From Muricea muricata (Eukaryota; Cnidaria; Anthozoa; Malacalcyonacea; Plexauridae), in contig OY979716.1 in the NCBI GenBank assembly GCA_963855995.1, positions 38,424,624-38,488,623 on the forward strand: 64,000 nucleotides of DNA. Reading direction: 5' to 3'. Of this stretch, positions 6,909 to 59,192 are shown one piece after another (the stretch's first letter is position 1; the number at the start of each line of letters is the position of its first letter). The notes beneath the pieces were generated by a model. The model was not told where the DNA came from. It did no database searches and worked only from the letters and a program-made list of their open reading frames with translations. The position numbers and the translations under genes are program-made.

Positions 6909-6986
6909 AGGGGGGTGACAGTCGAGTACGCATACTTTCTGCGCATAACAATTGGTGCGCCATTCCGGAAGTGAGCTTGCCGTTGC
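6909..6986 (+). repeat. Left terminal inverted repeat of element A
   Basis: Begins AGGGGGGTGACAGTCGAGTA directly after TTAA and contains TTTCTGCGCATAACAAT, a motif shared with the termini of element B. Confidence 0.9.
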
Positions 6987-7269
6987 CATATCAACGCAGT
7001 GTAATTAATATTCTGCTTTGTTTTTGAGACAAGGAGTGAAAATAGTGTATTTCAAAGTAAATACACATTGAAAGTAGCTGAAATGCGTAAAATTCTATAT
7101 TGAAAGATACAAAAAAGTACTGAAGCAATATGCAATTAATAAGTACTGCTTGTTCAACTCGGCAATATAGTATAACAAAGGAACCGCAATCAAACGGATA
7201 GCCTGTTCAAGTGGGTATCATATTTCAATTGTGAAACTGAAACATGTGTTTGGTATATTTGATTTGAAC

Positions 7270-10200
7270 ATGGCCGAAGCTTTGGATCGGAGTTTTTCTC
7301 TGGAAGAATTAGAAATAAACGAAATAGAAGAACGCGCATCCGTGCCAAATTTTGAAAACTTAACCACTTGTTCATGTCGCAGCAATTGCATTCGGGAAAG
7401 AGGCAGAAACTTTTGCCCGTGCAAGGCCAATACTGTTCAAGTGTCTGCCATGATGGAAATTCGCTATACCTGAATAACCGAAGAGCTTTGGAGAGTAACA
7501 GTGATGATTCATCGGTGAGCTTTTTTCTATTTTTCTGTTGGTCTGCAAATAAAATGTTCACGATATTAATTGATTTAATTCCACTATAGTCAAAGTATTG
7601 TATAATTTTATTGATTGAATTAATTGGATTATAAGATATATTTGCTCATATGTAAATTTAATACTGTAAACTGAAAGTAACTTAATTATCAGTCATTTTC
7701 AGTTTACTGATTTAATACAGTATCTGCTACAGCTACATGTATGATTTAATTGTGCTATCAATTCATGTGTTAATCTGAAGAATTGTGCAATTTGTGCTAT
7801 TCTGTGCTTTGCACTAATCAATACACATCTTGTAGGATTATGAGCTAATATCAGAGTATGAGGAGGAACAGCAGCTTGGTGGTGATGCAACGTCTGAAAT
7901 GGAAAGCCAAAGTGGGCATAGTCCTGATAGACATGAAAGCGAAGAATTCCAAATGAGTGTTGAAAGCAGTGGTGAAAATGGAGTGCAAGATAGTGATAAA
8001 ACAACATTTTTCAACTAAAATAACTAATCAAAGTATAATTTATATTATTCAGAATTTAGTTGACGGCCTTGGTATTGAGGCACTCAGAAGACTTGCTCGG
8101 GAGCTTCTTCGGAGACAGCCTGCAGTCTTTGCTGATATTGTCAATGGTAAAATTGTAGTTGGAGCCGAACAACCACCTCCAAATCCAGATCCACCACCAG
8201 AGTTGCAAAACCTGTTCAAATTTCCTCCGGGTAAAGTTTAAAGTTTTCAAACCTTCCTCAAAATATGGGTTTTTTAAATAGCAATATATATAAATTTAAA
8301 TTCTTAAAGCGTCCTTTTATTGACTTATTCCTATTTCCTACTGACCGGTATTTGGCATTAATTGATTAATCAACTGGTTGATTTCATTGTACGTTTAACA
8401 TTTGCACATGAGCCAAACAGAGGGAATAATAGAGATTGTCAACTGCAGACTGACAGCACATGTAATGATGTATGGCGATAAGATGATTGCTACAGAAACG
8501 CCTGCAATTATCTAAAAGCTGCAGAGCTGCTGTTGCCCGTATAAGGAAATGCTGTAAATACTAAAATGCATATCTATCTAACGAGCGTAAATAGTTTAAA
8601 TAATAGCTTTAATATTTAAGTGCTGTTATTTTTCATTTTTTGTTCAACCAAACGAATTAACACTGTTAAATTAAAAAACTGTTGTACATGTTAAACAACT
8701 AATTAAATGAATGTTCACTAGTTAAATCCACCAAAAGCCAAAATGGCAAAATCTAGTAAAATGGCAGTCTAGGCTTCTCTTTCTTCAGTCGTTTGGTTAC
8801 GAGTGATTCCAATCTGTTATTTTTGGTAACAAAATGCCACCAACGTCTTCCTCCAAAGTGTCGATCCAAAGCCGACTCTCCAAGTCTGGTGGCGTGGTGA
8901 ATAGGAGGACCATTCCAGTGAATTCTGGCCTCCAACCCGACATCGCCAATGTCCAGTCCCCTCCTCTTGTCACTGTGCATTTCTACATAGTTGCCCATGC
9001 TTTCAGCCACTCCTTCAGCATGGGTCTTCGTGGCACACCGAAGAAAGAAATGCAGAAAATCTTCGATTCCCATGTAGAGATCTTCCTCTCTTAAGAAAAG
9101 ATGATAGAATTTTAGCGAAATAACGACTCTTGGTTCCTTTACTTTTTGGAACTGTTTGCAGTCTTTGTAGTGCTTCACATTACATTCTGAAGAACACTGA
9201 TGAGTTTCGTAGCAAAGATGCTCCACATTTTTAAGGAGGGGATTTTCTTGATCATCAAACAGTGCCATCAGTCTTAATTTGAAGATTTCGTACTGTGCAA
9301 GGATGTCAGTTGTTATTTCTTGCGAGTAGCATGCTTGTTTCAGAAGCTCTTTCAGTTCGAGAACTCCGTAGTTCTCTACTGAGTCTACTTTCCTCTGCAA
9401 AAGGTCTTGTACCTCGAAACAGCTTGCCATTAGCTGAAAGATATGTGGATATTTTTCATTCTTAATTGTTCTATTCTCAATTCTTTCAGCAAGCATTTTG
9501 CAGAGACTCGTTAATCTATTTTGTACTGTTAGTAAACTGTCATTGCTTCCCACGTTAGCAGCAGATCGGCCCCTTCTTTTCTCTTCAGCCAATCCTGTGC
9601 TCAGTCCATGATACTGTTCACTAAGGACTGAGTTAACATACTGAGAGAGTGTAGGCCATCTTTTCGCGTCAATATCGGCACTCACATCAGTAACCTCGTC
9701 ATCTTCCTCAGCTGACTTGAGCAAAATCGCCGACATATCTCTTAAGCACTTAATTAATTCTCGTAACCTTTGTTCAACAGTCCAGGGAAACTGTTCAACC
9801 GTTTGTAGGAGACAGGAAAAGGTTCCCAAAAGACGGTGAATGTCAATTAGACCAAGATTTACCATAATAAAGGTCTTCGTCAAAATTTTCTTCAACCAAT
9901 TAGAGGCGTGCTCCCTTTGATCTTTCTCTCCACACTCCATAGATCTGGTTTGCAGTGCTTGAACTATTATTGGAAAGTCCTTTTCAAAGTTAGACAATGA
10001 TCGCTCGAAATAGGCAGAAAATCTAGTTGTGCTTAAATTTGTCAGTCTATACAGCCTCCTGTTCTGTTCTTCAGCTGCTGTAAGACACTGCTCCAGTCCC
10101 TTACCAATGTTAAGTGTTTGAATTATGCCATTGACTATTGAAATGTGTTCCACAAACCAGTCAAAAACTGTGGTCATCTCTCTGATATCTTTGGTTGCTA

Positions 10201-13200
10201 GTTCAATATTGTGGGCTGGTTCCCACATCTGTGTGATCCACATCCGCTTCTTATCTGTGTCCATACCTGGTATGTCTAACAGCTCTATAAGTTTCTCCAT
10301 TACTCCCAGACGAACATATTGTCCATCCCAACTAACGCCTTCCAACTGAGTGTCCTTGACACCAGCCCCGTTTAAAACTTTCTTGGCCATTGCAGCTAGA
10401 CCATCAGCATCATGATGTGTGACGGGTGGAACTTCAAGCATGACTGGAGCCAACATCACGTCAGATAGAGGGTTGGACGAGACAGGAATAATGATTGCAT
10501 GGATTTGTCCAGTTCTTTTATTTGGTGTCATCTTATCCATCACCATACCAACAGGTGGGCGTTGATTTGTGCAATCAAGTTTTCTTGATAAAGCTTGTTT
10601 TAGATCAACATCCATAGTGGCAGCAATATCTTTCGTTAATGCCCTTGCAAAGATTCTACTGTGGTTCACATCTCCTACTTCGCATTTGTTTAGTTTAGCT
10701 ACCAGTACGTCACTCTCAAAGCTGTTGTAGCTGTTTCCTTGCATTATTTCATTGTATCGGATTCTGAATAGATTCATTCCAGCTGTGTAAGATCTGGCTT
10801 GTCTTTTGGATTCTGCCAGCTGCTCTGCCTCGATTCTCTCCAACTGCTTCTGATGAAACACACTCTTATCCCTTCCCTGAGCTCCAAATAAATGCTCTGC
10901 AATATGACTTTTCAAATGACACAGGGTTTTTGGTTGTTGGCTGGGATTTGTAAACTTCTCGATATTATATTTGTTTACATTAACTTTAAAATATCCCGTA
11001 TTTTTTTCGTTAACATTTCTTCGAAGTTCTTCCTGAGACGTGCAGATTGTGCACGAAATTATTCCTGATTCTTCGTCGTAGGTGAATTTATTTTGTTCTA
11101 AATATCTTACCAGGCTGTCTAAATCTTTGCAATCAGCCAGGTCTCCACGAGATATTTTGTCACTTGTTTTAGTCTGATTAACTTTACTCTGGCATGTGTT
11201 GACAGGAATATTCCTACAAGAATTGTTAATAGTTTCTATGATATTTTGTTCCGACGCCTGGATTTTTTTCCCAATACTATCATTTGATTCTTTGATTAAT
11301 TTCACAATGATGGTCTCATCTGCTGTATTCTTACCAGATTGGGAAGAAAACATTTTTTTCACCGCTTTCTCTGGAATTGACTCTGTCTCCGCATATCTGC
11401 TTCTTTTCATTGAAACAAAATCTTCAGAAACTAGACATTCTCTATTCTCCAGTGTTTCTGAGCCTGTGATTTTATCAATCTCATTCTTTCCATCATCTTC
11501 AGTGTCGTCCATTTCAGTTACTTCGTCAAGGTCTTTGACTGTGTTCTTTTCCTGACTCTGACTCTCACTCTCAGCTTCCTTTTCACCATCAGAGATTTGC
11601 TTGTCAAGAACTTGGAATAAAGTGTGCTGATTTGATGGTATGATAATTCTGTGTTTAGCTGGCCTTCCCGGATGCTGAACATTATTATGTCTTTCTAGAT
11701 TGTCCAATCTTGTTTCTGTTTTACAATAGAAACACTGCACAGTCTCCTTACTCCCGGTTTGTCCCCATTTGCTAGAATTAGCCATTGAATTTTTAAAAAA
11801 TATGTCTTCTGTAAGCAAATTCTGTAAGCACTGATAAAATTCGAAAGTCACGTGTCGTTAACATGCATATTATATAGAGGTCAGCGGCAGAACCATGGCA
11901 ACAACATTCCGAACGGAAATTTATTCTTTTAATTATAGTGCATTTGCTTCCATATATAAACAGGGAAGGCATGTGAGAGTGTTAATGAGTGTGACCCAAA
12001 TATATCAAGCGACTGCTTTCACAGGCTTCCAAAGCAAAGTGCTAAATTGGAACCAAACAGCATCGTGCCCTATCTTCGGCTCCTTCGGGCTCCGTGGCGG
12101 TCGATAATTTAAAAAATGAAAATCAATGGGCAATAGATGCTGGCAATTCTGCCATATACAGCTTATGGTTTATCTTACAGTTTGTGGGATTTCAGTGGGA
12201 ATAGACTGTTAATGTATCCGGTATGTAAACAATGATTTGACCCCAATACATTTTGTCGAACTGTAAATTAACATGTATGCATGATAGTAATCAAGCTGTA
12301 TTATTTTCGTCAGACTTACATCGCACATGCTAAAATTTCTTGCTCAGTTTGTCTATAATTTCTGTGGCACTGCAGTGGCAGATTACAGCATTTCACCTTG
12401 GATAATGATAACAATGTTACAGCTTGATTAATGATTCCTTCCATTTATATTTTATAACCAATTCATTACTCAAGTAATGTGATTTTCTTATTGTAACCAT
12501 GAATAGTTCATGATAGCTTTTAGAAATAGCCTCCTGTTATTGGCATTGCAAAGCTTTAAATAAATGTAGCTCTGATGCTCAACACCTTTTAATTTTGCAG
12601 AATATTTTTAGTAACTGTCTTCTCAGTATCGTCCAGTGGCATTGCCATCTGGTATAGACACTGTCAAACTGACACAAATTATAGTGCCACTACTAACTTG
12701 TCAGCCACTCAGCCTTAATTAACTGCCTATTCAACTATCATTTTTTTAAGCTTTTTTGTGTTACTGTTGAGTCAAAGGGTAAAGACTACAAAGAGGGGCA
12801 GCCACTTCATTCAAAAAAGTGTAAGGTGCTGTTGTCATGATACGTCATGGGCGCCATGTTCCTAGCCAGTGCCCTAAACAGAAGCATTTCCCTCCGGTAT
12901 TAGTAGGCATTTTTAATATTTCTGGGGGGAACAAGCATGCAATATTCCTCATGGGTGCCATGTTCCTAGCCAGTGCCCTAAACAGAGGAAGTCATCCCCC
13001 GGAAATATTAAAAATGGCTACTAATACAGGGGGGAAATGCTTCTGTTTAGGGCACTGGCTAGGAACATGGCACCCATGACGTATCATGGCGACAGCACCT
13101 TATGCTTTTTTGAATGAAGTGGCCCCTCTTTGTAGTCTCTACGTACTCTTTGGTTGAGTGGAATGTTCGACCACTAAACCTTCCTCACTGACCTCACACA

Positions 13201-13629
13201 TAGTAAACCTTCCTCACGGGTGACACCCGCATACCCGCAGCTTTTTTGCAACTCTGTCCACCACAAAATGTTCCAGATTGGTGTAAGTGTGGACACTGTG
13301 TAGCCATGCCAACACAAGAAGAAAATAAGTGTTGCACAAGAACAGAACGGCCATGTATATCAACAACACCACTGTTGCAACAACTGGTTATCGATCCAAA
13401 TGTTTTGGATATTGCCATGCGTTATAGGGAAGATATGATGGTACTGGGCAATGGTAGAAATAATGAAAACTTTAGGCATGCTGCTTACAGGCAGTATGTT
13501 TTGTGGCAGCATGGCCGTCTAGGACGCGGAAATAGAAGAGTTGTACCCAGTTGTTGTGTTGTAGCGATCCGCAATCGTTATCCTTCACCAAATGGTGTGT
13601 ACACTGGGTACAGACCAGCAAGACTGTAA
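7270..13629 (+). CDS. Transposon-borne protein: Cys-rich module plus P2X7-receptor-type C-terminal (ballast) domain, element A copy
   Basis: Four exons: 7270-7514, 7836-7971, 8060-8230 and 13241-13629. All have GT..AG borders and compatible phases. Exon 1 encodes MAEALDRSF, an acidic stretch, then CSCRSNC...FCPCK, a Cys-rich module. A one-base slip just after FCPCK shifts the frame to YCSSVCHDG...NNRRALES, so this copy is frameshifted. Exon 2 is acidic and Ser-rich. Exon 3 holds a helix (VDGLGIEALRRLARELLRR) and a Pro-rich linker. Exon 4 is the conserved domain: WCKCGHCVAMP, ENKCC, a Cys in RPCIS, then AAYRQY-like AAYRQYVLWQHGRLGRGN, VVPSCCVVAIRNRYPS and GVYTGYRP. These match the order of the cytosolic zinc-binding ballast domain of vertebrate P2X7 (P2RX7_C family). 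No P2X channel transmembrane region is present. The large third intron holds later insertions. The same gene occurs intact in element B. Confidence 0.8.
8231..8752. other. Intron sequence of the ballast-domain gene
   Basis: AT-rich, no coding features. It lies between exon 3 and the nested hAT transposase, whose left terminus I could not place. Confidence 0.5.
8753..11851 (-). CDS. Intact hAT-superfamily transposase, 1032 codons, nested in element A
   Basis: A single uninterrupted frame of 1032 codons, by far the longest in the window. Near the N-terminus VQCFYCKTE...NLERHNNVQH is a zinc finger, followed by an acidic region (residues about 85-140). A second Cys/His unit (ISCTICTS ... HLKSHIAEH) lies around residues 265-320. 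The RNase H-like core shows MVMDKMTP (first Asp region), VSWDGQYVRLGV and MWEPAHNIELATKD. The C-terminus holds the dimerisation segment LGESALDRHFGGRRWWHFV. An internal ATG 22 codons in (MANSSKW) is an alternative start. The length and order fit the ZNF862-like branch of hAT. It lies antisense inside the last intron of the ballast gene. I could not identify its terminal repeats or 8-bp target duplication. The intact frame implies recent insertion or purifying selection. Confidence 0.8.
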   Translation of the reverse strand: MTFEFYQCLQNLLTEDIFFKNSMANSSKWGQTGSKETVQCFYCKTETRLDNLERHNNVQHPGRPAKHRIIIPSNQHTLFQVLDKQISDGEKEAESESQSQEKNTVKDLDEVTEMDDTEDDGKNEIDKITGSETLENRECLVSEDFVSMKRSRYAETESIPEKAVKKMFSSQSGKNTADETIIVKLIKESNDSIGKKIQASEQNIIETINNSCRNIPVNTCQSKVNQTKTSDKISRGDLADCKDLDSLVRYLEQNKFTYDEESGIISCTICTSQEELRRNVNEKNTGYFKVNVNKYNIEKFTNPSQQPKTLCHLKSHIAEHLFGAQGRDKSVFHQKQLERIEAEQLAESKRQARSYTAGMNLFRIRYNEIMQGNSYNSFESDVLVAKLNKCEVGDVNHSRIFARALTKDIAATMDVDLKQALSRKLDCTNQRPPVGMVMDKMTPNKRTGQIHAIIIPVSSNPLSDVMLAPVMLEVPPVTHHDADGLAAMAKKVLNGAGVKDTQLEGVSWDGQYVRLGVMEKLIELLDIPGMDTDKKRMWITQMWEPAHNIELATKDIREMTTVFDWFVEHISIVNGIIQTLNIGKGLEQCLTAAEEQNRRLYRLTNLSTTRFSAYFERSLSNFEKDFPIIVQALQTRSMECGEKDQREHASNWLKKILTKTFIMVNLGLIDIHRLLGTFSCLLQTVEQFPWTVEQRLRELIKCLRDMSAILLKSAEEDDEVTDVSADIDAKRWPTLSQYVNSVLSEQYHGLSTGLAEEKRRGRSAANVGSNDSLLTVQNRLTSLCKMLAERIENRTIKNEKYPHIFQLMASCFEVQDLLQRKVDSVENYGVLELKELLKQACYSQEITTDILAQYEIFKLRLMALFDDQENPLLKNVEHLCYETHQCSSECNVKHYKDCKQFQKVKEPRVVISLKFYHLFLREEDLYMGIEDFLHFFLRCATKTHAEGVAESMGNYVEMHSDKRRGLDIGDVGLEARIHWNGPPIHHATRLGESALDRHFGGRRWWHFVTKNNRLESLVTKRLKKEKPRLPFY
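11852..12782. other. Intron sequence right of the nested hAT protein
   Basis: No gene recognised. It presumably contains the hAT element's 5' untranslated region and right terminus. Confidence 0.4.
12783..13142. repeat. Foldback (MITE-like) element of about 360 bp
   Basis: Ends are inverted: AGACTACAAAGAGGGG at left and its complement CCCCTCTTTGTAGTCT at right, continuing through TTCATTCAAAAAAG and the CATGATACGTCATGG region. A 37-bp unit (CATGGGYGCCATGTTCC...) occurs twice direct (about 12846 and 12949) and once inverted (about 13042), so the arms contain a smaller palindrome. No clear target duplication was found. It lies in the last intron of the ballast gene, 100 bp before exon 4. Confidence 0.7.
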
Positions 13630-14181
13630 AAATCACGTTGAACTGAACATCACATTTTCATTGTGTCACATTTATTTATTTTAGTATTCTAAATCTTAAC
13701 AACTATAAATATTAGCCATTGTTTTTTCTATCTATACTACTTACTTCCATTTAGTTTTAATATGAAATAAATGTCTTCAAAGATTGCTAATTCTACTTCA
13801 GACAACATTATACCACAATTTGACTGTTTCGCTCAATATCAGAGCTCATCAGCATGCCTAGGAATCACTGGATATACAACTTAGTAGAACCTTAGCATGA
13901 ATAATATTTTCCAACTTTTCACATATATCCTTCTGTCAAATAAATAAAGAAAGGAATCAAAACATTACTATCCTAAAAATGTTTGTATGATATAATGATG
14001 TATCAAAACTAGCAAATAGCATGGCTTATTGTATGCATATCAGTGATTCCGACATGGACAGCCTGGCCCAAAACTGGACCTGGGGGTTTGAATTCAGAGT
14101 TTTCCTTCTCCTAGATGGATTGCCAACCACGGCTAATGAGCTCCATCTGCCCAATTTAGAAGATTGTCTTACAGTAGATCT
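13630..14181. other. Short spacer between two convergent 3' ends in element A
   Basis: This holds the 3' untranslated regions of both genes. AATAAA-like signals occur (for example ATGAAATAAATG near 13761 on plus). No other gene is visible. Confidence 0.5.
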
Positions 14182-17100
14182 TCACTCAAACCTAGATTGG
14201 TGAGCTTCAACCAGAGACTGCACGGGAGGAGGTGGAATTGCAGAGATGTTAGGCATGATTCTTTGTGGGTCATCATGCAAAACACCAATTCTATCACTGA
14301 CATGTGCTTCTGAGACTTCCTTCTTCTCAAATATTCTCTTCATAAGATTTGGTATGTAATCATAGGTTCTAGGTTTTAGCACCTTCAGTGCACGCCACTG
14401 CTGTGTCCTTTTACTAAACTTCCGCTCAAATCTAGATTTGCATTGAATTACATTGATTATAAGGTTTTCCTGGCATACAAAGACTAGTTAATCCATAATT
14501 TTAAAAAGTGAGAAAATTATTAGATCTAAAATGGAAAAATGTATCAGATGTACATTATGAAATTAATACCTTGGTTGACCATCAGCTGTAGTAGCAACAT
14601 CTCTACCCCTGTGATGGTTAAAGTCGATTGCAGCTAATTGGTTGCGCATTCGATAAGCAACAAATCTACAGTAGTAGAATTAAAAAACATGTTGAAAGAT
14701 GTCATATGATAGCAACACTGGGAAATGACAATTTTTTAAATACTCAGTTGTTACTTAATTAAAAAGCCTCCAGTCTGAGCAGCCATTTTAATCACCCATT
14801 ACCTCATTCATAAGATTTGCACATGTTGTTCAGTTTAATTGATTTACACAACTATTAATATCTCATCAAGTTTTCTGTACTATACCAATATTACCTGGGA
14901 CCACAGAAGATGAAAAAAATATTGGTAATCGAGGGAGCCCATATTCATATATTCACATTCTGCCTCTGTGATTAATTTCATTTGAAATTGAAATTTGCTT
15001 TTACAGTTTGTAAACCCAAATATATGAATATGGGCTCTCTCAATCAACAATCTTCCGCAATCCCTGATTATTAATAGCAACTTAGCATATGTCTGTAAAT
15101 ACTAACGTGTAAGACTGGCGCTTCGCAGCATACATCAGAATGTGGTTGTGGAAAGATTCCAAAAACCCTGTGTGTCTGAATAGAAAAAAGGAACATTCAA
15201 TCAATATGTATTGTATGCAATTGTATAGTTTATAAGGTTGTGCAGCTGAATACCTGAAGTTTATGAAATAAGGGATAGTGTTCAGGAATCTTTTGTCAAG
15301 CACAATCTTAGCCAGTGCACTATGAGCTGCTGAATTCTTCTTCAACCAAGGTTTGTTTCTTTCTGCTTCAGTCAGTGGAGCATGAGCACATTGTCCCCCA
15401 TTGACTCCTTCTTCTAATACCCACTCATGTTCATTGGCAACATGGTGTAGTATGCCAATCCACATATCCTTTAAAATAAAAATTATATAGTTGATATTTG
15501 AATAATCTAATATTATTTTCATATGCACATAACTTACTACAATATCTTACTTTAAAGTTTTTGACACTGCTTTTGCAATTCTTTGCACAGAACCAAAAAT
15601 GGTTCCTGACTGAAGGTGCCCAGAGTTGGAGGTCTTCATTGCCTTTAGATTTTGCAGCCTGGATTCATAAAAACAAATGCTCTTTTTTACCTTTCTGATG
15701 TTTTAAAGTAGGGTCACTATAATATAGTTATCAGCTACATATATCAACCTATTGCATAGTGTATACTTATAAAAAACTTACAGCATTAATTTTTTTAGCA
15801 ATTGATTTTCCACCATGCCAAACATCATTCTGGTGAACAATGGCCTTGTACTTGTCTTTATTTTCTAAAGGTTTGAATTACACAAATGCAATTGAGCAGA
15901 AAATTTTTGTAGGTGAGTGATTGGTAGGAACTTCTACTAAAATAGTTTGCTAAATCTTTTGCATTAATTTTTATTTTAATCACACATACATTTTATAGCC
16001 ATAAGATATTTAATTGACATTCAATTACCATAAACTGTTCTAATGAGACTTTCTACATAGATAAACTTACTCATCAATGCTCCAATCTCAAGATGACCAT
16101 CTGTAACCACCTCCTTTATGCACATTGCTGATGTAAGTAGCTTGTCTAACCCCCTTTCAAATCCAATCCTTTCCATATTGTTGCTTTTCCCTGCCGCTTC
16201 CCTCACATCAACAATGTTCATTTGAAGAATGGCATTATCAGCCATATCTGCCAAGCTATATGTGGAATACTGAGCTGAATGACCAGGTGAGCCATTCCTC
16301 CCATCACCACTCAGTATGATATCTTTACCAGCACGTACATCCCAAAGTTCCTTCTTTTGTTGCTCCCAGAAGTCATTCACTGTAGGGGCAATGTACAAAC
16401 TCTGGTACTGATAAAACAGTGATTTTGAAAAATACTGTAAATTGTAGAATTTGAACATCAACCCGATTTTTGTAAAAGAGTTCCCAGATAATAACAGAGA
16501 CGAAGCCAAAGCCAGATTGCCTGCCTTGACATTGCAGCATGTTGGTTGGGCTGACCATCTTCCACCAAAATGACCAGAATTACATTTCCACACTACCACC
16601 AGACAAGTACCAACATATCTTTTGGTATACATGAGTGCATGACCACACCCTTGCCTTTTACAAATACTACCATGTAGATCGGTCAATAGGGACATGATAG
16701 CATCTGTAAAGACAATGCACTTATCACTCTTGACGGCTTCATCTGGTGATACTTCAAGGACCATTGAAATAGCAATCACTGCTGATTCCATGAGATGTGG
16801 ACCCATATTCATCTTGATCTATATCTTCAGATTCATCATGACCCTCAATAGTAGTGTCAAAGACTTCATCTTCAACTGATGCAAAGGTTTCAGATAAACT
16901 ATTAACAAAGTATATACAGATTTGTGTAACATATTAGACAGGTTCAGATTTGACTTCCACTACCACTACTGCTACCACTACTGCTACCTTATCCCGATTT
17001 TTAAGCAATCTGATTGGTCAGTTAGGCAGACCAAGCTCATCTGATTGGCTGAAAGATTGATTAAGGTAGTGGTAGTGGTAGTGGTAGTGGTAGTGGTAGT

Positions 17101-18617
17101 GGTAGTGGTAGTGGTAGTGGTAGTGGTAGTGGTAGTGGTAGTGGTAGTGGTAGTGGTAGTGGAAGTCAAATCTGAACCTCTCTAATCTTAACACAACTTA
17201 ACACAATAATATCATTTTCTGTGAGCACGCACAATACAATCCGACAAACATCACAGTGCTCATATGAGGATAAACCACAATGATAAAAATTCATTTCTTT
17301 CCACCCAAAATGGAAGATGAATTGTACAGGATGTAGAAAACAGGTTGACCCTTTGAACTATAGCCACATTTCAATCTGTTGTATGGTATTGCCAATTTGA
17401 CAGCTGTGGTTGTTTCTTTCGCATGCTGCGCAAAAAAGGTCTTATTCATATGGAAATCATTTAGAGTTTTGAAATTAACGCAACAGGTTGCGGCTAATTT
17501 GAATTGTGGTTACTTCAAAGGGTCTACCTTTTCATACACTTTGTAGAGTTAAAAAGACAAATGATCTTTTACAGTAAAATTAATAAAATATAGCTAGCAT
17601 ACTTCTGGTTCCCGTCAATATGGTGTGGAACAGCTGTTTCTGGCATGATAATGGTATTATCGTCATCATCAGATTCACTTTCGCTGGCGGTCAAAGTGGC
17701 AGACATGGTTTCATCTAACATATCCGGTCTGTGTTTAGATACAAGCAAAAAATAATACCCATTAAAGAATCAGTTGTCCTTAGCAAATAAAGTCTTGTCA
17801 TCAATACAATATTTTAATATACGCTTGCGATAAATCACACAAACCTATGTCGCTTTGGCGATGGAGAGCTGTATTGGTCCGGCATCAGTCTTCTTCGACT
17901 TATTATTGTTGTTGTGAGCGTTGGGGGTATCACTACATCCGAACGAATAGGAAGAAAATTAAAATAAGACATTTGTCAACGTTTTCCTGTCTATGTCTTA
18001 CCTGGCGATGGCAAATCATATCTTAAACCACTGGTCTTAGGAATCACATCAACTGGTGTTGAATGTAATGTCGCTAGCACTAAAAAATAACAAGCAAATT
18101 TGACATGAGATCATGAATAGTTCAGTTTAGAAATCAGATACACCGCATTTATAATAGAAAGTAAAAAAAATTAATAAAGGCTCCGATATTCTAAAGAATA
18201 TTAGTACCTGGTGAACTGGGTGAAGATGGCTGTGTACAGTGTGGAGACATTTGACTCTGTTCTTCAAACAATAACCCCATTGTGCTTTCAGTTTGAGTTT
18301 CCACGTCACTAAAAAATCAGGTGCAAAACGTTATAGAAGAAAGGTATACAAAACAGAAAAGTTGAGAGGTGTATTTGAATCGTTTGATTACGCTTTTACC
18401 TCAAAGTGTTTCTTATATTGTAGCTGTTCAGAAGAAACTCGGCTACATCCTTGTCTGATTTTAAGTTGTGTTCATCTTTGAACACTCTCCACCTTTCGAA
18501 TGCTTCATACAAACATACTCTAGACGCATTCCTTTTCTTTTGTAATTTCTTGAGCGAACCCTTGTCAAAACGACTTGAAGGATTCCCTTGAGAACTTGAC
18601 GCACCTGAATCGGCCAT
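14182..18617 (-). CDS. Kolobok-like transposase, 12 exons, element A (damaged)
   Basis: Exons (minus): 18617-18400, 18308-18208, 18079-18002, 17932-17845, 17728-17603, 16898-16081, 15864-15782, 15658-15551, 15468-15254, 15175-15107, 14665-14570 and 14469-14182. The first five encode a short basic/Myb-like start (KLQKKRN, YEAFERWRVF) and a Ser/acid-rich linker. Exon 6 holds a zinc-binding pair (CKRQGCGHA, CNSGHF), SGDGRNGSPGHSAQY and VVTDGHLEIG. Exon 7 has NDVWHGGKSIAKK, exon 9 MWIGILHHVANEHEW, exon 10 RHTGFLESFHNHIL with the presumed catalytic Glu. The order matches element B exon for exon. Oddities: the 5' part of exon 6 appears frameshifted relative to its catalytic part (near 16760-16800), and the usual DSPG Asp is Gly here, so activity is doubtful. 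An intron holds the MITE at 16940-17179. Confidence 0.8.
16940..17179. mobile_element. 240-bp hairpin MITE whose arm has expanded into a (GGTAGT)n array
   Basis: Terminal inverted repeats begin AGGTTCAGATTTGACTTCCA (left) and are matched exactly at the right end (reading inwards). Both run into CTACCAC/GTGGTAG triplets. The left arm keeps a short, varied version and the right arm is a pure hexamer array. The centre is a short unique sequence. It lies in intron 5 of the element A transposase. I saw no convincing target duplication. Confidence 0.75.
17065..17162 (+). repeat. (GGTAGT)n microsatellite, about 16 copies
   Basis: Near-perfect hexamer array of about 98 bp forming the inner part of the right arm of the surrounding MITE. 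Confidence 0.95.
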
Positions 18618-18658
18618 CACTCCTCAAATACAAGATGCGTGTCGCGAATTTTAATGAG

Positions 18659-18736
18659 GCAAAGGAAAGCTCACTTCCGGAGTGGCTCACCAATTGTTAT
18701 GCGCAGAAAATATGCGTACTCGACTGTCACCCCCCT
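18659..18736 (-). repeat. Right terminal inverted repeat of element A
   Basis: Reverse complement of the left end, about 73 of 78 positions identical, followed directly by TTAA. Confidence 0.9.
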
Positions 18737-18740
18737 TTAA

Positions 18741-37426: not shown

Positions 37427-37880
37427 CACTGTATACAATGTAAAAAGCACATCATATGATGTCAAAAGCACCGCAAATGATGTCAAAAGCACCGCATATA
37501 ATGTCGAAAGCACCGCATATAATGTGAAAGCACCGCATATAAAGAAAAAAGCACCGCATAAAAAGAAAAAAGCACAGCATATAATGTTAAAAGCACCACA
37601 TATGATGTTAAAAGCACCGCATATAATGTTGAAAGCACCGCATATAATGTGAATAGCACAGCATATAATGTCAAAAGCACCGCATGTAATGTGAAAAGCA
37701 CCGCATATAAAGAAAAAAGCACAGCATATAATGTAAAAAGCACCGCATATAATGTCAAAAGCACCGCATATAATGTCAAAAGCACCGCATATAATGTCAA
37801 AAGCACCGCATATAATGTTAAAAGCACCGCATATAATGTAAAAAGCACAGCATATAATGTTGAAAGCACCGCATATAATG
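37427..37880 (-). repeat. Right terminal array of element D: 21-bp units, inverted relative to the left array
   Basis: About twenty units of GTCAAAAGCACCGCATATAAT type, the reverse complement of the left array. It is longer than the left array, so unit number has changed since the arrays formed. Confidence 0.9.
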
Positions 37881-37942
37881 CAAAAGCGTATAACGTAACG
37901 AAAAGTTACCACCTAAGACAGCTATGGCATTCCATACATTAT

Positions 37943-40702: not shown

Positions 40703-43700
40703 TTACCTTTTTGCTTCATTTATCTATTTTTTTTGGTAACTCGGATACTGTGCTCTTTAATTGCTTCTAGAGTCTTCACGGTGAATCAGATGTCTTGCGT
40801 TGCATTGATAGATTCCACCTCTTTAGCTACTTTGCGATCGCCTTCATTGGGCAGGTATGCTCTACTTAGTGTATCCGCGAGGTACATGGTGGATCCCTTT
40901 CAATACGATAGGTTGATCTGGTACAGTTGGGCTTGCATCAGCATACGTTGAAACCGTTTTGGTGCTTTGTAAACTGGTTTCTTAAGGATCACTTCCAAAG
41001 GCTTGTGGTCAGATTCTACGTTGACTTTTCTCCCATAAGTAAACATGTGAAATTTCTCTAGTCTGAATATAACCGCCAGAAGTTCCTTCTCAATTTGTCT
41101 CTACATCCGTCAATGCTTGACTAGCATAAGCTATTGGATGTCCATCTTGAGTTAGAACAGCTCCAAGTCCTCTCTCAGAAGCATCACACTGCAAAGTGCT
41201 CTCCTTTGAGGCATCAAAGTACTTTAGGGCAGGAACACTTGTCACCAGCCGTTTTACGTGATCGACCGCTCTGTCGTGAATATCCGTCCAAAGACCACTC
41301 AACATTTTGCAAGGTAAGGTCTCATAGTGGTTTACATACTTCACTCAGACGGGAGAGGAAGTTGCTAAGATAGTTTGTGAACCCAATAAATCTTCGAACA
41401 CTTACCACATCAGTTGAAGTAGGCATATCTAGAATGGCTTTCACTTTCTCAGGGTCTGGCTTCAGCCCCTTCTCTGTTATCACGTGACCCATAAACGCTA
41501 CTTCTTTGTGTCGCAATTTCACCTTCTGCTCATTAAGCTTTACATTTTGTTCCTGGCATCTGAGCATCAAGGCATGCAAATTCTGGTCATGATCTTTGGT
41601 GGCTTCATCGTCAGTTGCACCTTCAACAAAGATCAGGATGTCATCATGTATTACTCGTATCCCCTTGAGACCTTAAAGGGCATGATTTAATCTTTGTTGA
41701 AATTCCTCAGGTGCCGTACTCACCCTGAATGGTAGTCGACACCATCAATATCGTCTAAACAGTGAGTTAAACGTCGTTAACTGTGAACTTTCTTTATCAA
41801 GTTCGACATGCCAGAATCCATTCTTTACATCAGTGGTAGAAAACACTTTCGCTCTGGCTAACTCAGGGAGGATTTCATCAATTGTTGGCGTTGGATAATG
41901 ACTTCTTCGTAACACATAGTTAAGATCTTTCGGATCAATGCAGACACGAATCTGTCCATTTGGTTTATGTACAATTACCAAACTCGACACCCAGGACGTC
42001 GACTCTGTGACTCCCGTAATGATTCCCAGATCTTGTAGCCTCTCCAACTCTTGTTTTAATTTATCTTTCAAAGCTATTGGAACTCGTCTGGGCGGGTGGA
42101 CAACTGGTTCAGCATTCTCTTCTACTTCGAGTTTATATTGCCCCCTTAGTTTTCCCATCCCTTGAAACACGTCTGGATACTTTTTTACAACTTCGTCTTT
42201 TGTAAGGTGTCTACTGTGTACTGATTGTCTTGTCTGGTTCCCCCTTGCTCATCTTTAAAAGACATTATATTGTTATGTTCCACCCTTACAAGATCCATTT
42301 TTTGAATTGACAAGTTTCCAAGTATCAGTGTGCATCCGTTGACTACGACAAACTCAACATCATATATCTTCTCGTTGGTTGGATTCTGCAATCTCAGGCT
42401 ACATTGTCCAAATGGTTTTACAATGTCATTGTTATACATTTTCAGAACCTTTCTTGTAGCTTTTAGAGTTCTTTTAACAATGGGCAGTAAATCAACGGGA
42501 ATAATGTTCCAGGTCGCACCACTATCCGGCTGAAACTTGACAGGCTTCCCCTGGAACTCAAATGTTGCAAATAACTTTTTTTCATTCTTTGTCTTCCTAT
42601 TGGTGTTTATTGCATAATTGTTTATTGTTTCGTATTCAGTGTCAGAGTTTATAGTTAGGCAGTAATCATCATCATTAATGTCGTCACTGCTTGAACTTTC
42701 CACTGTTACATTGTTGACTTTGCTGGACTTCGAGAAACATTTCTTTGCAAAATGATTCATCTTGCCGCACTTTAGTCATTTCTTTCCAAAAGCCGGACAC
42801 TACTGTTGCTTGTGACTTCGTCCACATGATTTACATTCTTTTTTAACACTCATTTGAGAGTTCTTCGGCTTAAACTTTGTTGTTGTATCATCAGGCTTTC
42901 TAGCCGCCTCAGCTGACCGATTCCACTTTCCTTTGTCAAGCTCATGTCACAACCAGTTAATGACTTAACTTTCTTCAAGTGCCTTTCTTTGCTCTTTTGA
43001 CAATTCAGCTGCTCTGCAAGCATTTAGACAACGTTTCAAGTATAAGTCCTGACGTTTTAATAACCCTTCGCGAAGTTGCTTATCTTTAATACAACAGATT
43101 ATGCAGTCTGGCATCAGCGAGTCTTTGAGAGTAACAAAATTACAGCTTGCTGCTAAAACTTTTAAACCGGTAACAAATTGGTCTAATGGCTCATTTGTCT
43201 CTTGAATTTACGAGAAAAACTTATATCATTCAACAGTTTCGTTTCTCTTCGGGTTACAGAAGCTATCAAAAGCTTCTACGACTTGCTGTAGAGTTCTGTC
43301 ATGTGGTGGCGTTTCGAATTGTATTGTCTTGTAAATTTCATGGCCTTTGCTTCCAACTAAGTACAGGAACAACTTTGTCTTTGTTTTTCACTCTTGCCGT
43401 CCATTGCAAGATCCATATAGAGTTCGATTTCTGCTTTCCATCGCTTTCATTTGCTTGATAGCCCTATTGCATCGAAATCTAGCTGCATCGGTGTAGGCCG
43501 TGGGTTGCACAGTGGAAAGTAAAATAGAAAAACAGTTTCGTGACCCCCATCTGAGAAACAGATTTTCTTTCTCTTAATGCAAACTTGAAACAAGTATTCA
43601 ATTACCAAAAAAAGTTCTCAAGCAAAATACCTGCCCATTCGAGAGAAATCCTTATCCAAAACATCCAGCTTCGAAGCTTGCTATTTTGGCCGCCATCATG
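40703..43700 (-). mobile_element. Second Ty3/Gypsy: gag, protease, RT, RNase H; integrase missing
   Basis: Minus strand: gag-like region from about 43560 (FETPPHDRTLQQVVEAFDSF; LPDxIICCI-type helix; zinc knuckle LKCGKMNHFAKKC near 42760). Retropepsin with PDSGATWNIIP (about 42530). Reverse transcriptase from 42170 (PRRVPIALKDKLKQELERL, IRVCIDPKDLNYVL, VFSTTDVKNGFWHVEL). RT-thumb/connection (VAFMGHVITEKGLKPDPEKV, 41500). RNase H (LQCDASERGLGAVLTQDG, 41170; YLADTLSRAYLP, 40890). The sequence stops at the P-element remnant, so integrase and 3' LTR are absent. Multiple shifts and stops. It is a different family from the Gypsy at 23.3-27 kb. Confidence 0.8.
43490..43700 (-). repeat. Segment shared in inverted orientation with 49751-49935
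   Basis: On minus from about 43700: ATGGCGGCCAAAAT...GGATAAGGATTTCTC..CGAATGGGCAGG, GAACTTTTTTT, ATGGGGGTCACGAAAC and CCCACGGCCTA. The plus strand at 49751-49935 has each motif in the same order. It probably is the leader or start of the same retroelement family. Confidence 0.5.
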
Positions 43701-44090: not shown

Positions 44091-44092
44091 TA

Positions 44093-48960: not shown

Positions 48961-48964
48961 ATGA

Positions 48965-52877: not shown

Positions 52878-52928
52878 AAGGACAAGTTGTAATGTTGTGA
52901 GTAAAAACTTGACACAATGCCAGCTTAA

Positions 52929-52967
52929 AGCAGCAGTGCCACCCGCTGCGCACCCTGTTCTGCGCAT
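52929..52967 (+). repeat. Left terminal inverted repeat of element B
   Basis: 39 bp, exact match to the right end; follows TTAA. Confidence 0.95.
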
Positions 52968-53017
52968 GTATCAACTTGAAAAGGTTGGGTGAACTTTTTC
53001 AAGTTTCGAATTTCAAT

Positions 53018-56000
53018 ATGGCGTCTAACGCCGGAGGAGCGCACGGTGGTGCTAGGCGAAATTCAGGTTGGAAAAAGGCATTTTCAAGCCGAGAAGATTA
53101 TAGGAAATCTTGGGAGAGTCATCACAAGAGGATATATTTGAATGTTAATATATTTAATTCGTGGAAAGAGGCGAAAATTGAAGCAGGATACAGCAATTCA
53201 AGTGACAGCGATTTTGCTGCGCATTTGTTGTCCTTAGAATTTCATCGAAAGTAAGTTCTAATTTGGTTTTCTACTCTGCGGTGGTAAACACAACTGTAGT
53301 TAAACAACATTTGGGTAATTTATAGGGAGTCGTCTACTGCTCGAATCCTCAGACCCAAACGTCAACGAATTGGGCAAAACACAACAGCCTTGCCTCAACA
53401 GGAAATTGTAGATGTCAGCGAAGACGAAAGACACATGGCCGAACAGCAGGAAAGTGTCTCTCAAGGTATGAAAGGAATGGACTCATCCCAAATACTATTT
53501 TTAGATCAATTGAATCTATCGCTTCACACATATACGCAATTTCTCTACCGTGTAAAATGAGAAAGCAAAAAGGTCCAAAATATCAAAAAAATTTTTGGAA
53601 CCTTATTGGTTCCTGATCTTTATTTTTGTTGTTCTTTATAATCGGTATTTTACGGCAATTGCGTGTAAAATCGCGTTAAACTTTTGTCTCGACCGGTTTG
53701 CTCTCATGACATGAATTCATTCACAATACAATGCTTTGACGTTGCTGAATGACATTTCGTGTAACATTGGATGCAACATTGTTCATAATAGCTAATCAAA
53801 CGTTTTAGGACTGTATATTAAAACTGTAGCAATGAATCATTGACGAAATGCGAGATTGTTGTGATCAAAACATGAGACAGAAGCCCGTTAATTTATGTTT
53901 GTCACAATGCTTTGTTTATGTTTGATGTACGGTACAGTAAGATTCTTCTACATATGTTAGAGGGGGCCATATAACAGGTTTAAATGTGAAATTTTATTAT
54001 TTGAAAATATGCCACCCTATGCAAGGGGGGGGGGGAGTTAGTGATAGAGTCAGTTGATCCATCCAAAAATTTAAAATTTGACTATAGTTGCCTTTGGCGT
54101 ATGTTCAGGATAAATGCTCGCTGTTGCACTATTGTCTGTGATGAATTATATTTTACGCTTTTAGAACAAAGAACATCTACACCACTGAAATGTTCTGGTG
54201 CAGAAGCACCCTCCCACATTGAGTCACCAGTGTCCTTCGAAGGCCAAGTGCTTGACCATTTTCACCATGAGGCACATAATGATCAGATAGGCATAGATGA
54301 TGCATCATTTCAGGAAAGGTAAGCAAGAATTGTGTTTATTATTTGTATATAACATATTTTTATTTTACTTTATTTAACATCTTGATTATATAGTCTTGCT
54401 GGTGATTCCATAGTAAATCGAGAAGGAAATACATCAATCTTTGTGGATGATAGGTTGTGATTCTGAAGAAACCGTCTCCGTTGAAAGCATTGGGTGAATA
54501 GTGTGTTTTAATTGTGTAGTAGACTGTTAAATTTGTAATTTATTAGGATATTTGAATACTGGCTTCACAGATATTATAGCCCACAACAAAATTTATCATA
54601 TGCCTGTTTTTTAACAGACTACATGATCATACTACGTCAGCGATTCAATTTTTAAATGAAGAAGAAAATCCTAATGACAACGAGTACCAGTAAGCAATTC
54701 TTTATCCATTTTAAACAGTCAACCATGCTTGATTTTCATGTGTTACAAATTAACAAATTTTATTGATATCTCACTTTTTCGTATTAGAGTAATATGTATT
54801 TTAACTTGTCAAAGGCATTTGAAACTTTTGTATAATGTGTTATTAACTATATTTATAGAGAGGAGGATGATGATGTGGTCTATTATGATGCTTTCGACCC
54901 GTTTGACCCAGATGAACAACAGTTTGAGCAATCTGATTCTGACGATGATTTGGGTGAAACTGATTCAGGAAAGAAAACCAGTTTTGGGTTTGGACCACAT
55001 CCAAAGTTCAGTAGAGGTGATGAGAAATATGCCTTGAATGAAGAGCTCAAGATGGTTGAAGAAAAACGTTTCATTTGCTCTCTGGATCTGTTGCTTGATA
55101 TGCTTTCAAAACGTTGCCAAACTCCCGGTTGCAATAACATTCCAAATGTGACACACCACTTTATTGGTACAACACTGGTTGCAAACATTTCATGCCAGGC
55201 TGGACATGCATTCAGGTTCTGCTCCTCTCATGAAGTTAGCCAAATGTATGTAAATAACATCCAGGTTGCTGCTGCTGTGTTGCTGTCAGGGAACAACTTT
55301 GGCAAAGTAAAACGCTTGGCTGAAAGCATGAATTTGGCATTTGTATCAAAATCTTCATACTTTAGGATCCAAAGAGTATATCTTTTGCCAGCAGTGGATG
55401 AGTGGTGGGGTGGATGAGAGGTCAATTAATGGAAGAATTTCGAGGCCAGGAAGTCGTATGTAGTGGTGATGGCCAGTGTGATTCTCCTGGTTTCAGCGCG
55501 AAGAATCTGTGTTATTTCATTATGGAAGTTACTTCAAAATACATCTTGGAGGTTCAAATCGTTGATAAACGACATGTTGGCTTAGTATCCAGCAACATGG
55601 AAGTGGAAGGCTTGAAGAAGTCCTTGAAAAAACTTCAGGAGGACTTGAATGTTGTCGAATTGGTAACTGATGCATCGTCATCTGTCAAGAAATTACTGGG
55701 TAGGTTGAAGCTTACAAATTGATTAGAGATAATAAAAAAGGTAGTAAAGACATATATTTGTTTTATATGAATAATTTGTGTCAAAGTTTAATTTTAATGT
55801 TTTCTTTAGTTCATTATTGATCATTTTTACTTTGTTATTCATTTTGGCACCTGAAATGATAACAAAGCACATATTTATAGCATGGAAAGGTGAACTATGT
55901 AGAAACTAGACAATCATATGCTTTTGTAGATCCACCACAATTTTTTTTGTGAGCTGTTACAAGTACAATGTAGAGTTAGTACAAGTATGTATTGTCATAT

Positions 56001-57369
56001 AATTTTACTATGTAATATGATTTCAGAAACAGACTTCAAAACTGTGAAACACAGTCTGGATATATGGCACAAGGCAAAATCTATTAAAAAGTGTCTTGAC
56101 AAAGTAAGTTGGATTTCCATTTGGTACTGAAAAAAAGATTACCAGTTGAGGTGATCTTATTGTTATACTAATTTGTCTCAGTGCTGTGAATTTACTTGCA
56201 AAATGTTGTTTTGTTTTATTTCATTTTAGCTCGGCAAACCCAAAGCAATAAAGAAAATAAAGGACTGGTCAAGCCATATAATCCTTCATTTTTGGTATTG
56301 TGCCAGTGAATGCAAAACTGATGAATCTACATCAGATGACGAAGCTTTGAAACTGATGAAGGTATCTTTTGTAACATTGTGCAATACTATATATTGTTTT
56401 ACTATGCTAACCATTTACCATTTAACCTATAGGACATGTGGATAGGGTTGTTACACCATGTGTGCAATGACCATGAGTGGCTTGGTGGCAAATGCACTCA
56501 TCATGAACTCCTTCATGATGAGAACCTTCCTTGGTTTGATAGACGTGACAAAGATTTTGTTGAGCTGCAGAAAGTTATTTTAAATCCAGAACTGCTGGAG
56601 AGTTTCAAATATTATACAAGATTTAGGTATAAACTGCTTGAATTTTAAACTAAGTGTATCCACACATTTCACATGGGCGACAATTTAGGGGTTGTTATTG
56701 TTTGATTTTTTGGGCTGGGATTAGAATTACAATTATGGTAGAATTATGGTTGTAGGCATTCAATTTAGGATTAAGGGTTCTAGTACCAAGTCTAAAACTA
56801 GAAACAACCCCTAATAAATAGAACCAGTAAGATTGTGTATACATTTATCTATTTTTTTGTTGATTTGACAGACACACTGGAGAGATAGAATGCGCCAATA
56901 GCCTCAGCTTAGTGTATACACCAAAACGAGTGCCATTCAGGTAAGATAAAGTTGCTGTAAAATATTGCATGCTCTTGTAGCATACATGCAAATATTCTGT
57001 TGCAATATTTATTAGTATTCTACTATTAGTTATAGAGTGTATAAAGCTCGGAAGCAGTTGGCAGCAATTGATTGGAACTTTCATGCAAATCTTCCCAATG
57101 CCAAAAGTAAATCTGGTGTTGAGATGATAACGCGAAGGTACAACCGAAGGACCAGGCAGTGGGATATAAAGCCAATCAAAGTCAACAAGGGATATGATTA
57201 CCTTCCAATTCTGATGGCTAAGATAATCAATCGAAGACTACATGATACAGAGAATGTAACCCGGAATGTGGCCCTCAATATTAGCGACCCAGGAAACATT
57301 GCACCTACAATTGCTCACATACCAGCACCAGCAACAAAGGACATACCCCAAAGAAAAAGTCGATTTTAA
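53018..57369 (+). CDS. Kolobok-like transposase, 11 exons, element B
   Basis: Exons: 53018-53250, 53326-53465, 54165-54318, 54394-54453, 54618-54689, 54859-55699, 56027-56103, 56230-56361, 56433-56626, 56872-56940, 57036-57369, with GT..AG borders. The start (MASNAGGAHGGARRNSGW) is the first ATG inside the left end. Exons 1-5 give a basic N-terminus (KAFSSREDYRKSWESHHKR) and acidic linker. Exon 6 has a zinc-binding pair (CQTPGCNNIP, CQAGHAFRFC), then VVCSGDGQCDSPGFSAKN and LVTDASSSVKKLL. Exon 7: HSLDIWHKAKSIKK; exon 9: MWIGLLHHVCNDHEW; exon 10: RHTGEIECANSLSLVY with the likely catalytic Glu; exon 11: KGYDYLPILMAKI and the C-terminus. One base is missing in a G-run near 55408, putting the DSPG half out of frame with the zinc-binding half. 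An assembly error there would make the gene whole. Nuclear DNA transposition is its expected role. Confidence 0.85.
53466..54164 (+). other. Intron 2 of the element B transposase
   Basis: AT-rich, with a G-run at about 54026. No other feature. Confidence 0.6.
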
Positions 57370-57419
57370 TAAAACAAACTATATTTTTATTTACATTTAA
57401 TACTTGTGTTTTTTTTTAA

Positions 57420-59097
57420 TTACCGTTCCCTGTATCCCATATAAACTCCTGTTACCGATGGATAATGCTGTCTAATTTTCAGGACTACACATGAAGGACA
57501 AACTCTGCAGTTGCCTTTCCCTAAATATCCATATCTAGTCAAAATAAACTGCCTGTAAGCTGCTTTACGAAAAGCTGTTGTACTGTTGTCTTCACGATCG
57601 TTTCTAATATCACTTGTATTTCTAATGCACAATTGAAGAACATCGGTATCCAGGCATAACTTTATGAACTGTGATGACAAAGTTATGCAATTTTTCAGTT
57701 TGCAACACTTATTCTCCACTTCTTGGGGCATGGGTCTACAGTTTGAACACACACACCATGGTGGAATGGCTTCACCTTGAGTTGTTGCCATGGTACCTTC
57801 CTGCTGATTTGTTGTTGCCACAGCACTTCCTTCAGCAACATCTTGTGGTTCAATGTCTTCAGCTTCTTGTTGTTCAGTGTCTTCACCATCACCAGAGATA
57901 CCCATATTTTCATCCAGATCATCTTCCAGAATAAGAAGTGATTGGATGTAGTCCATACTCCCTATTCCTCTTCTAAGGCTTCTGATTGCAAGCTTTTTCA
58001 ATGTTGTGTTGTCAAGTGTATTAATAAAAGCCTGTGAATTGAATATTACAGTAACATCTATTAATGCCTTGCCCAAATGAAACAGGGGGGGGGTGAAGGG
58101 GGGGGGGGTGAAGGCATAACCAAAGACTATTGACATTTTGAGAATTTTGAGTCATTAAAATACCTGCAGTACCCACACTTCATCAGTTAGGTTAAAATAT
58201 AGATAGGCAGATAATTTATTTACATATTCATCTACATCACGCCAAATGTTGTAAAATGACTGCCAATGACTGTACAGGGGTAAACCCAAACACTGCTTTA
58301 TTAATCAACAAGTTCACAAACAATGAAACATTTTATTGTTGCTATGACTTTTATATTATTACTACAAAAACGTAACATATCATATTTTAACTGTTTTCAT
58401 ACATGACAATAGGTTGTGTCGCTGTCAGAGTACACATATTTAATAAAAGCTTAGTGCAGTCCAATTGTAGATTGGCAATAAACATATTAAAATCAGAATG
58501 ATTTAATGATATATCAATCAATATAAATGTTATGATGCTTGAACATTCATTCAGTAAATCATATAGTCTGTATCAATTTGTAAACTAACCTTCACATCAC
58601 TGTTTTCTTTTTCTCTCTCTTGATCTTCTGTTACATTTTCCTGCTGTGTCAGACCACGGAAACGGCACGGCAGCTTTGCCCTTTTACCATGTGGCGACCT
58701 GTCACGACTTGCTCCCTCTTCGCTTACGTTTTCCTATTGTAAAGCGCAAACGGGTATTAAATAAAACACGAATGGTGAATTCAAAACATGCACGCTTGTT
58801 ACTGAACCTACCCTATTTTTGCAAGGATTTTTAGGAGTTCCACACTTGCAGTTGGCGGAGCACACCATGTTGCTTGCTTTACACGGACATCCTCGTTTTG
58901 TTTTCTCGTTTCTTTTCGTGGCACAAGTACTCTTACAACTGCAGTTTACCTGTATCAAATTAATAACCAAAATAACCAAATATGGTTATTCAATTTTGAA
59001 AATGTAAATTTATGCACATTCTAATCATATACAGCATATGAATCAGTGATATGAATACACTCACCGCACTTGTGCTTGACGCTCCTGACGCCTCCAT
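57420..59097 (-). CDS. Transposon-borne protein: Cys-rich module plus P2X7-receptor-type C-terminal (ballast) domain, element B copy
   Basis: Five exons on minus: 59097-59065, 58949-58812, 58733-58590, 58259-58164, 58031-57420, all in phase 0 with GT..AG borders. The open product is about 340 residues. Exon 1: MEASGASSTSA. Exon 2 is a Cys-rich module: VNCSCKSTC, GCPCKASNMVCSANCKCG, CKNR. Exon 3 is charged. Exon 4: FYNIWRDVDEYVNKL. Exon 5 starts LKKLAIRSLRRGIGSMD, an acidic linker, then WCVCSNCRPMPQ, ENKCCKLKNC, LCLDTDVLQLCIR, FRKAAYRQFILTRYGYLG and VCPSCVVLKIRQHYPSVTG ending VYMGYRER. The cysteines and order match the P2X7 ballast domain, which binds zinc (and, in rat P2X7, a guanine nucleotide). 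No signal peptide or membrane segment. The frame is intact, unlike the element A copy. Its function for the transposon is unknown; DNA or RNA binding through the Cys-rich module is possible. Confidence 0.85.
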
Positions 59098-59153
59098 GTT
59101 GGCTTAACGAGTACGAAACGACAGTTTCCGATCTATTCCAAACATCCATTGTT

Positions 59154-59192
59154 ATGCGCAGAACAGGGTGCGCAGCGGGTGGCACTGCTGCT
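59154..59192 (-). repeat. Right terminal inverted repeat of element B
   Basis: 39 bp, exact inverted copy of the left end; followed by TTAA. Confidence 0.95.

Follow-up and report, generated by a model that had tools for sequence, protein, structure and literature searches.

We examined a 64,000-nucleotide (nt) stretch of the genome of the octocoral Muricea muricata (assembly GCA_963855995.1, contig OY979716.1, positions 38,424,624 to 38,488,623 of the forward strand), referred to here as the window. The window contains two mobile elements, A and B (Table 1), each of which carries a transposase gene and a second gene that runs convergently on the other strand and ends in the ballast domain of P2X7, a key receptor in inflammation. 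Such a ballast fold has been reported for KolX, the second protein of Kolobok transposons of the Kol0 lineage (Kojima and Bao 2022, PMC9587614), and we use this name for the ballast genes of A and B.

Exact TTAA duplications flank both ends of A and of B, and the same was found for a third complete element of ∼6.4 kb elsewhere in the genome (locus L049), in which 29 of 30 end bases match. With the TTAA counted in, the inverted arms span 90 nt at 91% identity in A and 45 nt at 100% identity in B. The outermost bases of both elements are AG at the start and CT at the end, that is, 5'-RR...YY-3', unlike those of piggyBac. The four ends of A and B are otherwise dissimilar, except that all contain TTCTGCGCAT at one distance, 32 or 33 nt counted from the first base of the TTAA. 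Among 20 loci of 9.9 kb that were fetched from the genome, 11 had a TTAA-purine-purine end followed by TGCGCA upstream of KolX, compared with 0.2 such ends per 9.9 kb in shuffled loci; this search required TGCGCA, and the frequency of ends without that hexamer is outside its reach.

The transposase landmarks SGDG, VTD, DxWH, HEW, and HTGxxE follow one another in the same order in B (plus strand) and A (minus strand), and both genes have the layout of a DDE transposase with C/DxxH between the second D and the E. A CCHC finger between SGDG and VTD, which marks KolobokP, E, and D and Kolobok5, was not seen in A or B by eye (no profile was run), and the Pfam scan of the window transposases returned only a weak Mutator match for B, under the cut-off. 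The first-pass annotation of this DNA had described TTAA duplications and inverted ends in both elements, with an SGDG..SPG transposase convergent with a ballast gene; the ends described above bear this out, and the landmark order and strands agree with it.

KolX of element B consists of four minus-strand exons, its three introns all bordered by GT and AG, and this layout is shared by the Dendronephthya protein P0003 (57% identity over 96% of the query). In element A, a comparison with the genomic copy L032 shows a frame shift near 7421 in the Cys-rich exon, and the last exon is interrupted by a second mobile element. We call this insertion hAT-type based on its 8-bp duplication and CAGAG-type ends, which we take to be hAT marks. 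Copy L032 retains the insertion-free site: the A flanks align there and overlap by exactly the 8 duplicated bases. The insertion contains an open reading frame (ORF) of 1034 amino acids (aa) (8753-11857, minus strand) with no Pfam match above the cut-off, and it also supplies approximately the first 17 residues of the ORF at 13207-13629. The large size of A is due to this insertion; without it, A measures 6,761 bp, close to the 6,264 bp of B. The B transposase shifts frame near 55411; at this point another genomic copy, 99% identical, is open for 295 aa, so the B copy is broken. Both A and B are therefore damaged copies. Many of the ballast and transposase matches across the genome have open frames, and the families as a whole are not dead. 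Two further features relate to the hAT-type sequence: paired inverted arms of 128 nt (93%) at 12801-13123 inside the insertion, perhaps a further small nested element, and two ORFs at 111-1422 (minus strand) that by eye resemble parts of the 1034-aa ORF, including its GDxxHSR stretch.

The identity of the ballast domain is supported at several levels. The Pfam family P2RX7_C matched the ORF at 13207-13629 (plus strand) in A with an E value of 3e-36 (125.6 bits) and the ORF at 57420-58151 (minus strand) in B with an E value of 5.4e-27 (95.4 bits), against a curated cut-off of 23.5 bits. For each of A and B, all four distinct PDB sequences matched at E values up to 1 were P2X7 (best, 4e-23 for A and 3e-14 for B). 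Among 29 stop-free copies, each of the seven zinc cysteines is kept in 28 or 29, and the ratio of nonsynonymous to synonymous substitution rates (dN/dS) among stop-free copies shows that the ballast is under purifying selection. A fold search and a model of the domain, compared with P2X7, predict that the KolX ballast takes the P2X7 ballast fold. In the published account of rat P2X7, roles are described for R546, H547, R574, R578, and K583, with five guanine-nucleotide contacts (Rump et al. 2020, PMC7016195). The KolX ballast retains two or three of these five contacts (three in A-type copies): R546 and R578 are conserved in both A and B, H547 in A, and R574 and K583 in neither. We also attempted a full-length KolX structure with AlphaFold2, using the relative P0003 and an alignment of 53 rows, and set it aside as too poor to compare (mean predicted local distance difference test score [pLDDT], 53.7; predicted template modeling score [pTM], 0.27); confident modeling was limited to residues 114-161, the helical linker.

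Upstream of the ballast and on the same strand, 14 of the 20 fetched loci encode an unbroken Cys-rich module. Of the 12 B-type proteins of at least 250 aa that were returned, 6 have this module and two more its second half; it was found in 0 of 120 listed A-type proteins (none longer than 250 aa) and in 0 of 21 P2X7-type proteins. Twelve aligned modules have the same eight cysteines, and all 12 close with CxN. These features look like a divergent CXC zinc cluster, for which the superfamily consensus is CX[C/H]X2-13CX4-7CXCX5-60CX2-4CX1-2CX2-15CXN (PMC3447885). The nine ligands come in the same order, and mostly at the same spacings, as in the CXC domains of MSL2 and LIN54 described there, and the closing CxN is shared.

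To place these observations in a genomic context, we searched the whole genome (453 Mb) with the P2RX7_C profile, for which 150 of 740 candidates were scored, and with the A and B transposase queries, for which 144 of 730 and 150 of 496 candidates were scored and merged into 193 loci. There are thus at least 150 ballast copies in the genome. Within 8 kb, 107 of the 150 scored ballast matches had a convergent Kolobok transposase locus, 2 had one on the same strand, 1 had a divergent one, and 40 had none. When the ballast positions were moved together in 1000 common shifts, the number of convergent pairs averaged 2.6 and never exceeded 9; with the A transposase alone, the observed count was 89 of 150 (shifted mean, 1.9; maximum, 7). 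As a control, piggyBac, another TTAA transposase with 117 places in the genome, lay near only 2 of the 150 ballast matches, both of which also had a convergent Kolobok match. In the 20 fetched loci, A- or B-related transposase exons (both queries counted together) were found in 19 and, by our reading, always face the ballast gene convergently from the other strand; L035 had none. One ballast match (G000:C1:21231323-21231646) lies within an open frame of 2543 aa and has a convergent transposase match ∼2.3 to 2.4 kb downstream. A related profile search, over repeat consensus libraries of cnidarians, sponges, and molluscs, had been proposed in the first-pass annotation. The pairing counted in this genome, together with the purifying selection, supports the view taken there of the ballast protein as a long-standing transposon component. 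That annotation had also read the P2X7 order of cysteines and motifs in both genes, in line with the Pfam and PDB matches, and had remarked that the copies diverge greatly yet keep their cysteines, as the 29 stop-free copies do.

The anatomy of the elements, the pairing, the selection, and the homology to P2X7 are direct observations. Taken together, they make it very probable that A and B are divergent copies of Kolobok elements of the Kol0 kind, each with a TTAA-type DDE transposase and a tail-to-tail KolX on the opposite strand. We hold it equally probable, as part of this reading as a whole, that KolX is a two-module zinc protein, in which a helical linker joins a predicted CXC-like Cys cluster at the N terminus to a ballast of the P2X7 type at the C terminus.

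Several results weigh against this interpretation or limit its strength. None of the 12 Cys-rich modules fits the published CXC consensus, with the spacing from Cys3 to Cys4 (at least 8 residues in KolX instead of 4 to 7) failing in all. If this spacing is relaxed to 4 to 14, 7 of 12 fit, and all 12 fit once a His adjacent to Cys7 is allowed as well; the remaining five are A-type modules, which, in contrast to the MSL2 and LIN54 domains, have no Cys8 and have a His adjoining Cys7. An hhalign comparison of the module profile with MSL2 and LIN54 CXC gave a P value of 2.9e-4 but a probability of only 40% over 20 columns; that score was reached by 0 of 200 column shuffles, 0 of 200 random placements of the Cys columns, and 1 of 200 shuffles restricted to the non-Cys columns. 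At the family level, the Pfam CXC family matched 0 of 12 modules (stray matches, zf-NF-X1 at 0.0046 and NIR_SIR at 0.03), the module profile retrieved no CXC chain from the PDB and only five chance matches to caspase-2, a PDB search with the single B module gave no match, and an NCBIfam scan of four proteins gave nothing of note. Because the published consensus does not fit, we call the module CXC-like and do not count it as a CXC member. For the ballast, the dN/dS estimate dropped 364 of 406 pairs as saturated or undefined, and the alignment behind the fold model contained 9 rows derived from P2X7, so that the model is not independent proof. The ballast search and both transposase searches scored just part of their candidates. 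Moreover, some of the 40 ballast matches with no transposase match within 8 kb may be solo or host genes; stops occur in 18 of these 40, compared with 21 of the 110 paired matches, and for two of the 40 (L031 and L037) the DNA fetched around the match does include a transposase exon. Finally, DNA binding by KolX and a need for KolX in transposition are predictions only.

It is important to note that A and B are members of the published Kol0/KolX kind, and in this sense the main claim is not new. They share with the elements described in PMC9587614 the TTAA duplications, the 5'-RR and YY-3' ends reported there for Kolobok, the DDE transposase with C/DxxH, and a second protein with a ballast. 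The consulted text of that paper mentions neither a Cys-rich N-terminal module in KolX nor a shared subterminal TTCTGCGCAT and names no octocoral element, and among the open-access main texts listed in our searches we found no description of a CXC-like module in KolX. Our additions are modest: the CXC-like module, the shared end motif, the selection on the ballast, and the nested hAT-type element in A. KolX and the cytoplasmic ballast of P2X7 (exon 13) have the same domain with the zinc cysteines kept, but KolX is without the P2X channel part, and P2X7 is without the N-terminal module and linker of KolX. Nanor and other proteins with the ballast (ZCD), in the text of PMC7016195, are likewise short proteins with the ballast at the end; they are described there as host proteins in which no further domain is known, and we set them against KolX by this description only. 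In PMC9587614, Nanor is considered a probable domesticated KolX, and the origin of P2X7 is placed in a fusion between KolX and a P2X4-like gene. The suggestion in the first-pass annotation that the P2X7 tail "may descend from, or share ancestry with" a mobile-element protein was right, suitably cautious, and already published.

Both families are abundant, and ballast genes and transposases might meet only by chance, as two frequent sequences falling side by side in a genome rich in repeats; the 107 convergent pairs, their orientation (107:2:1), and the piggyBac control contradict this, and we regard it as exceedingly improbable. A rather improbable alternative, to which we nonetheless give far more weight than to chance, is that the ballast was an ancient host gene later captured by Kolobok and that P2X7 took its ballast from the host gene. 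According to PMC7016195, the ballast occurs in many animals, mostly without other domains and in fewer than 10 genes per species, and shows linkage, considered ancestral, to two markers across animals from sponge to molluscs, arthropods, and echinoderms; transposons are not mentioned in the text available to us ("transpos" occurs 0 times). Here, in contrast, at least 150 ballast copies were found in one genome, most of the scored copies lie within Kolobok elements, and all 17 P2X-receptor matches lie on a single contig (C14) that has none of the 150 ballast matches. Further, PMC9587614 states that the earlier survey had not recognized ballast proteins as parts of Kolobok. Our tree (72 rows, 120 columns; unrooted, with a midpoint root for drawing) includes 9 P2X7 and 17 B-type KolX rows, each of which forms one group on a long branch, with P2X7 outside all sampled transposon sequences. 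The tree cannot choose between the two histories, and given the midpoint root and long branches, we rejected the tree as evidence on the direction of descent either way; descent from element to receptor is stated in PMC9587614 and is not shown by our tree. The P2X7 rows come from a P2X7-fragment search that gave 21 proteins, taken as P2X7 by similarity and a few names, with no other recognizable vertebrate ballast proteins among them.

What KolX does is a separate matter. Kolobok transposase cuts and pastes at TTAA. Because KolX stands in a tail-to-tail array with the transposase and is under purifying selection, we tentatively suggest, at somewhat less than an even chance, that it binds DNA as an accessory factor in transposition. 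In such a scheme, the CXC-like module would contact DNA, with the TTCTGCGCAT motif common to the element ends as its candidate target, and the zinc-built ballast would form a docking or oligomerizing platform for the transposase complex. P2X7 would later have acquired only the last exon of a KolX-type gene, and the last exon of B KolX, which holds linker and ballast together, would suit such a one-exon capture by a P2X gene. A less likely possibility is that KolX regulates the element, as a repressor, silencing decoy, or host-interaction protein brought to the promoter by the CXC-like module, and has no part in the transposition machinery. KolX is indeed a separate gene on the strand opposite the transposase, starting near the other element end, and it is retained together with the transposase in most scored copies, a pattern from which sequence cannot tell a regulator from a machine part. 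Purifying selection and retention across strongly divergent families, however, fit a needed factor at least equally well. An elaboration of the accessory-factor reading, which we consider quite unlikely, is that KolX would be a nucleotide-sensing DNA-binding factor whose CXC-like cluster reads TTCTGCGCAT and whose ballast gates assembly of the transposase complex; the guanine-nucleotide pocket of P2X7 might then be a relic of transposition control.

If the P2X7 tail derives from an accessory protein of a transposon, what KolX does would be the key to the zinc sites and guanine-nucleotide pocket of the tail. The many divergent and often open KolX genes found here beside transposase and ends make this question testable, and the CXC-like module and shared end motif supply a concrete DNA-binding hypothesis.

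Table 1. Features of elements A and B, in positions of the window
Feature	Position	Strand	Evidence or remark
Element A, probable Kolobok (Kol0-type) DNA transposon	6909-18736		TTAA duplications 6905-6908 and 18737-18740; inverted arms; transposase landmarks
A left terminal inverted repeat	6909-6994	+	contains TTCTGCGCAT
A KolX first exon, CXC-like Cys-rich module	7270-7513 (end approximate)	+	sequence; alignment with copy L032
A KolX last exon, helical linker part left of hAT-type insertion	8053-8197 (start approximate)	+	matches open protein P0121
hAT-type element nested in A KolX last exon	8198-13256 (5,059 bp)	.	8-bp duplication TCCACCAC at 8190-8197 and 13257-13264; ends CAGAGTTGCAAAA
A KolX P2X7 ballast domain	13257-13629	+	Pfam P2RX7_C 3e-36; PDB P2X7; model compared with P2X7
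A transposase, HEW zinc-binding part and HTGxxE	15082-15546	-	last catalytic residue at 15157-15174
A transposase, DVWH (C/DxxH signature)	15815-15826	-	landmark reading
A transposase, catalytic exon, SGDGRNGSPG and VTD	16021-16818	-	landmark reading; genome search
A right terminal inverted repeat	18651-18736	-	contains TTCTGCGCAT
Element B, probable Kolobok (Kol0-type) DNA transposon	52929-59192		TTAA duplications 52925-52928 and 59193-59196; inverted arms
B left terminal inverted repeat	52929-52967	+	contains TTCTGCGCAT
B transposase, N-terminal/zinc exon	54836-55417	+	open frame; weak Pfam Mutator match 0.0018, below cut-off
B transposase, catalytic part, SGDGQCDSPG and VTD	55411-55698	+	frame differs from preceding exon; homologous to A
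B transposase, DIWHK (C/DxxH signature)	56059-56073	+	landmark reading
B transposase, HEW zinc-binding part	56472-56480	+	landmark reading
B transposase, HTGEIE, last catalytic residue	56873-56890	+	landmark reading
B KolX exon 4, helical linker and P2X7 ballast domain	57420-58031	-	AG border; Pfam 5.4e-27; PDB P2X7
B KolX exon 3, linker	58590-58733	-	AG/GT borders
B KolX exon 2, CXC-like Cys-rich module	58812-58949	-	AG/GT borders
B KolX exon 1	59065-59097	-	GT donor
B right terminal inverted repeat	59154-59192	-	contains TTCTGCGCAT

Other traces of mobile elements are present in the window outside A and B. An ORF at 32792-33928 (plus strand) has an integrase core domain (rva_4; 4e-69) and represents another mobile-element gene, and retroelement fragments lie at 41745-42775 (minus strand), with an RVT_1 match (6.3e-07) and a gag-type zinc finger that scored weakly, under the cut-off. 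Between them, at 37325-37945, a long tandem repeat reads TAYNVKS/LYAVLL in several frames.

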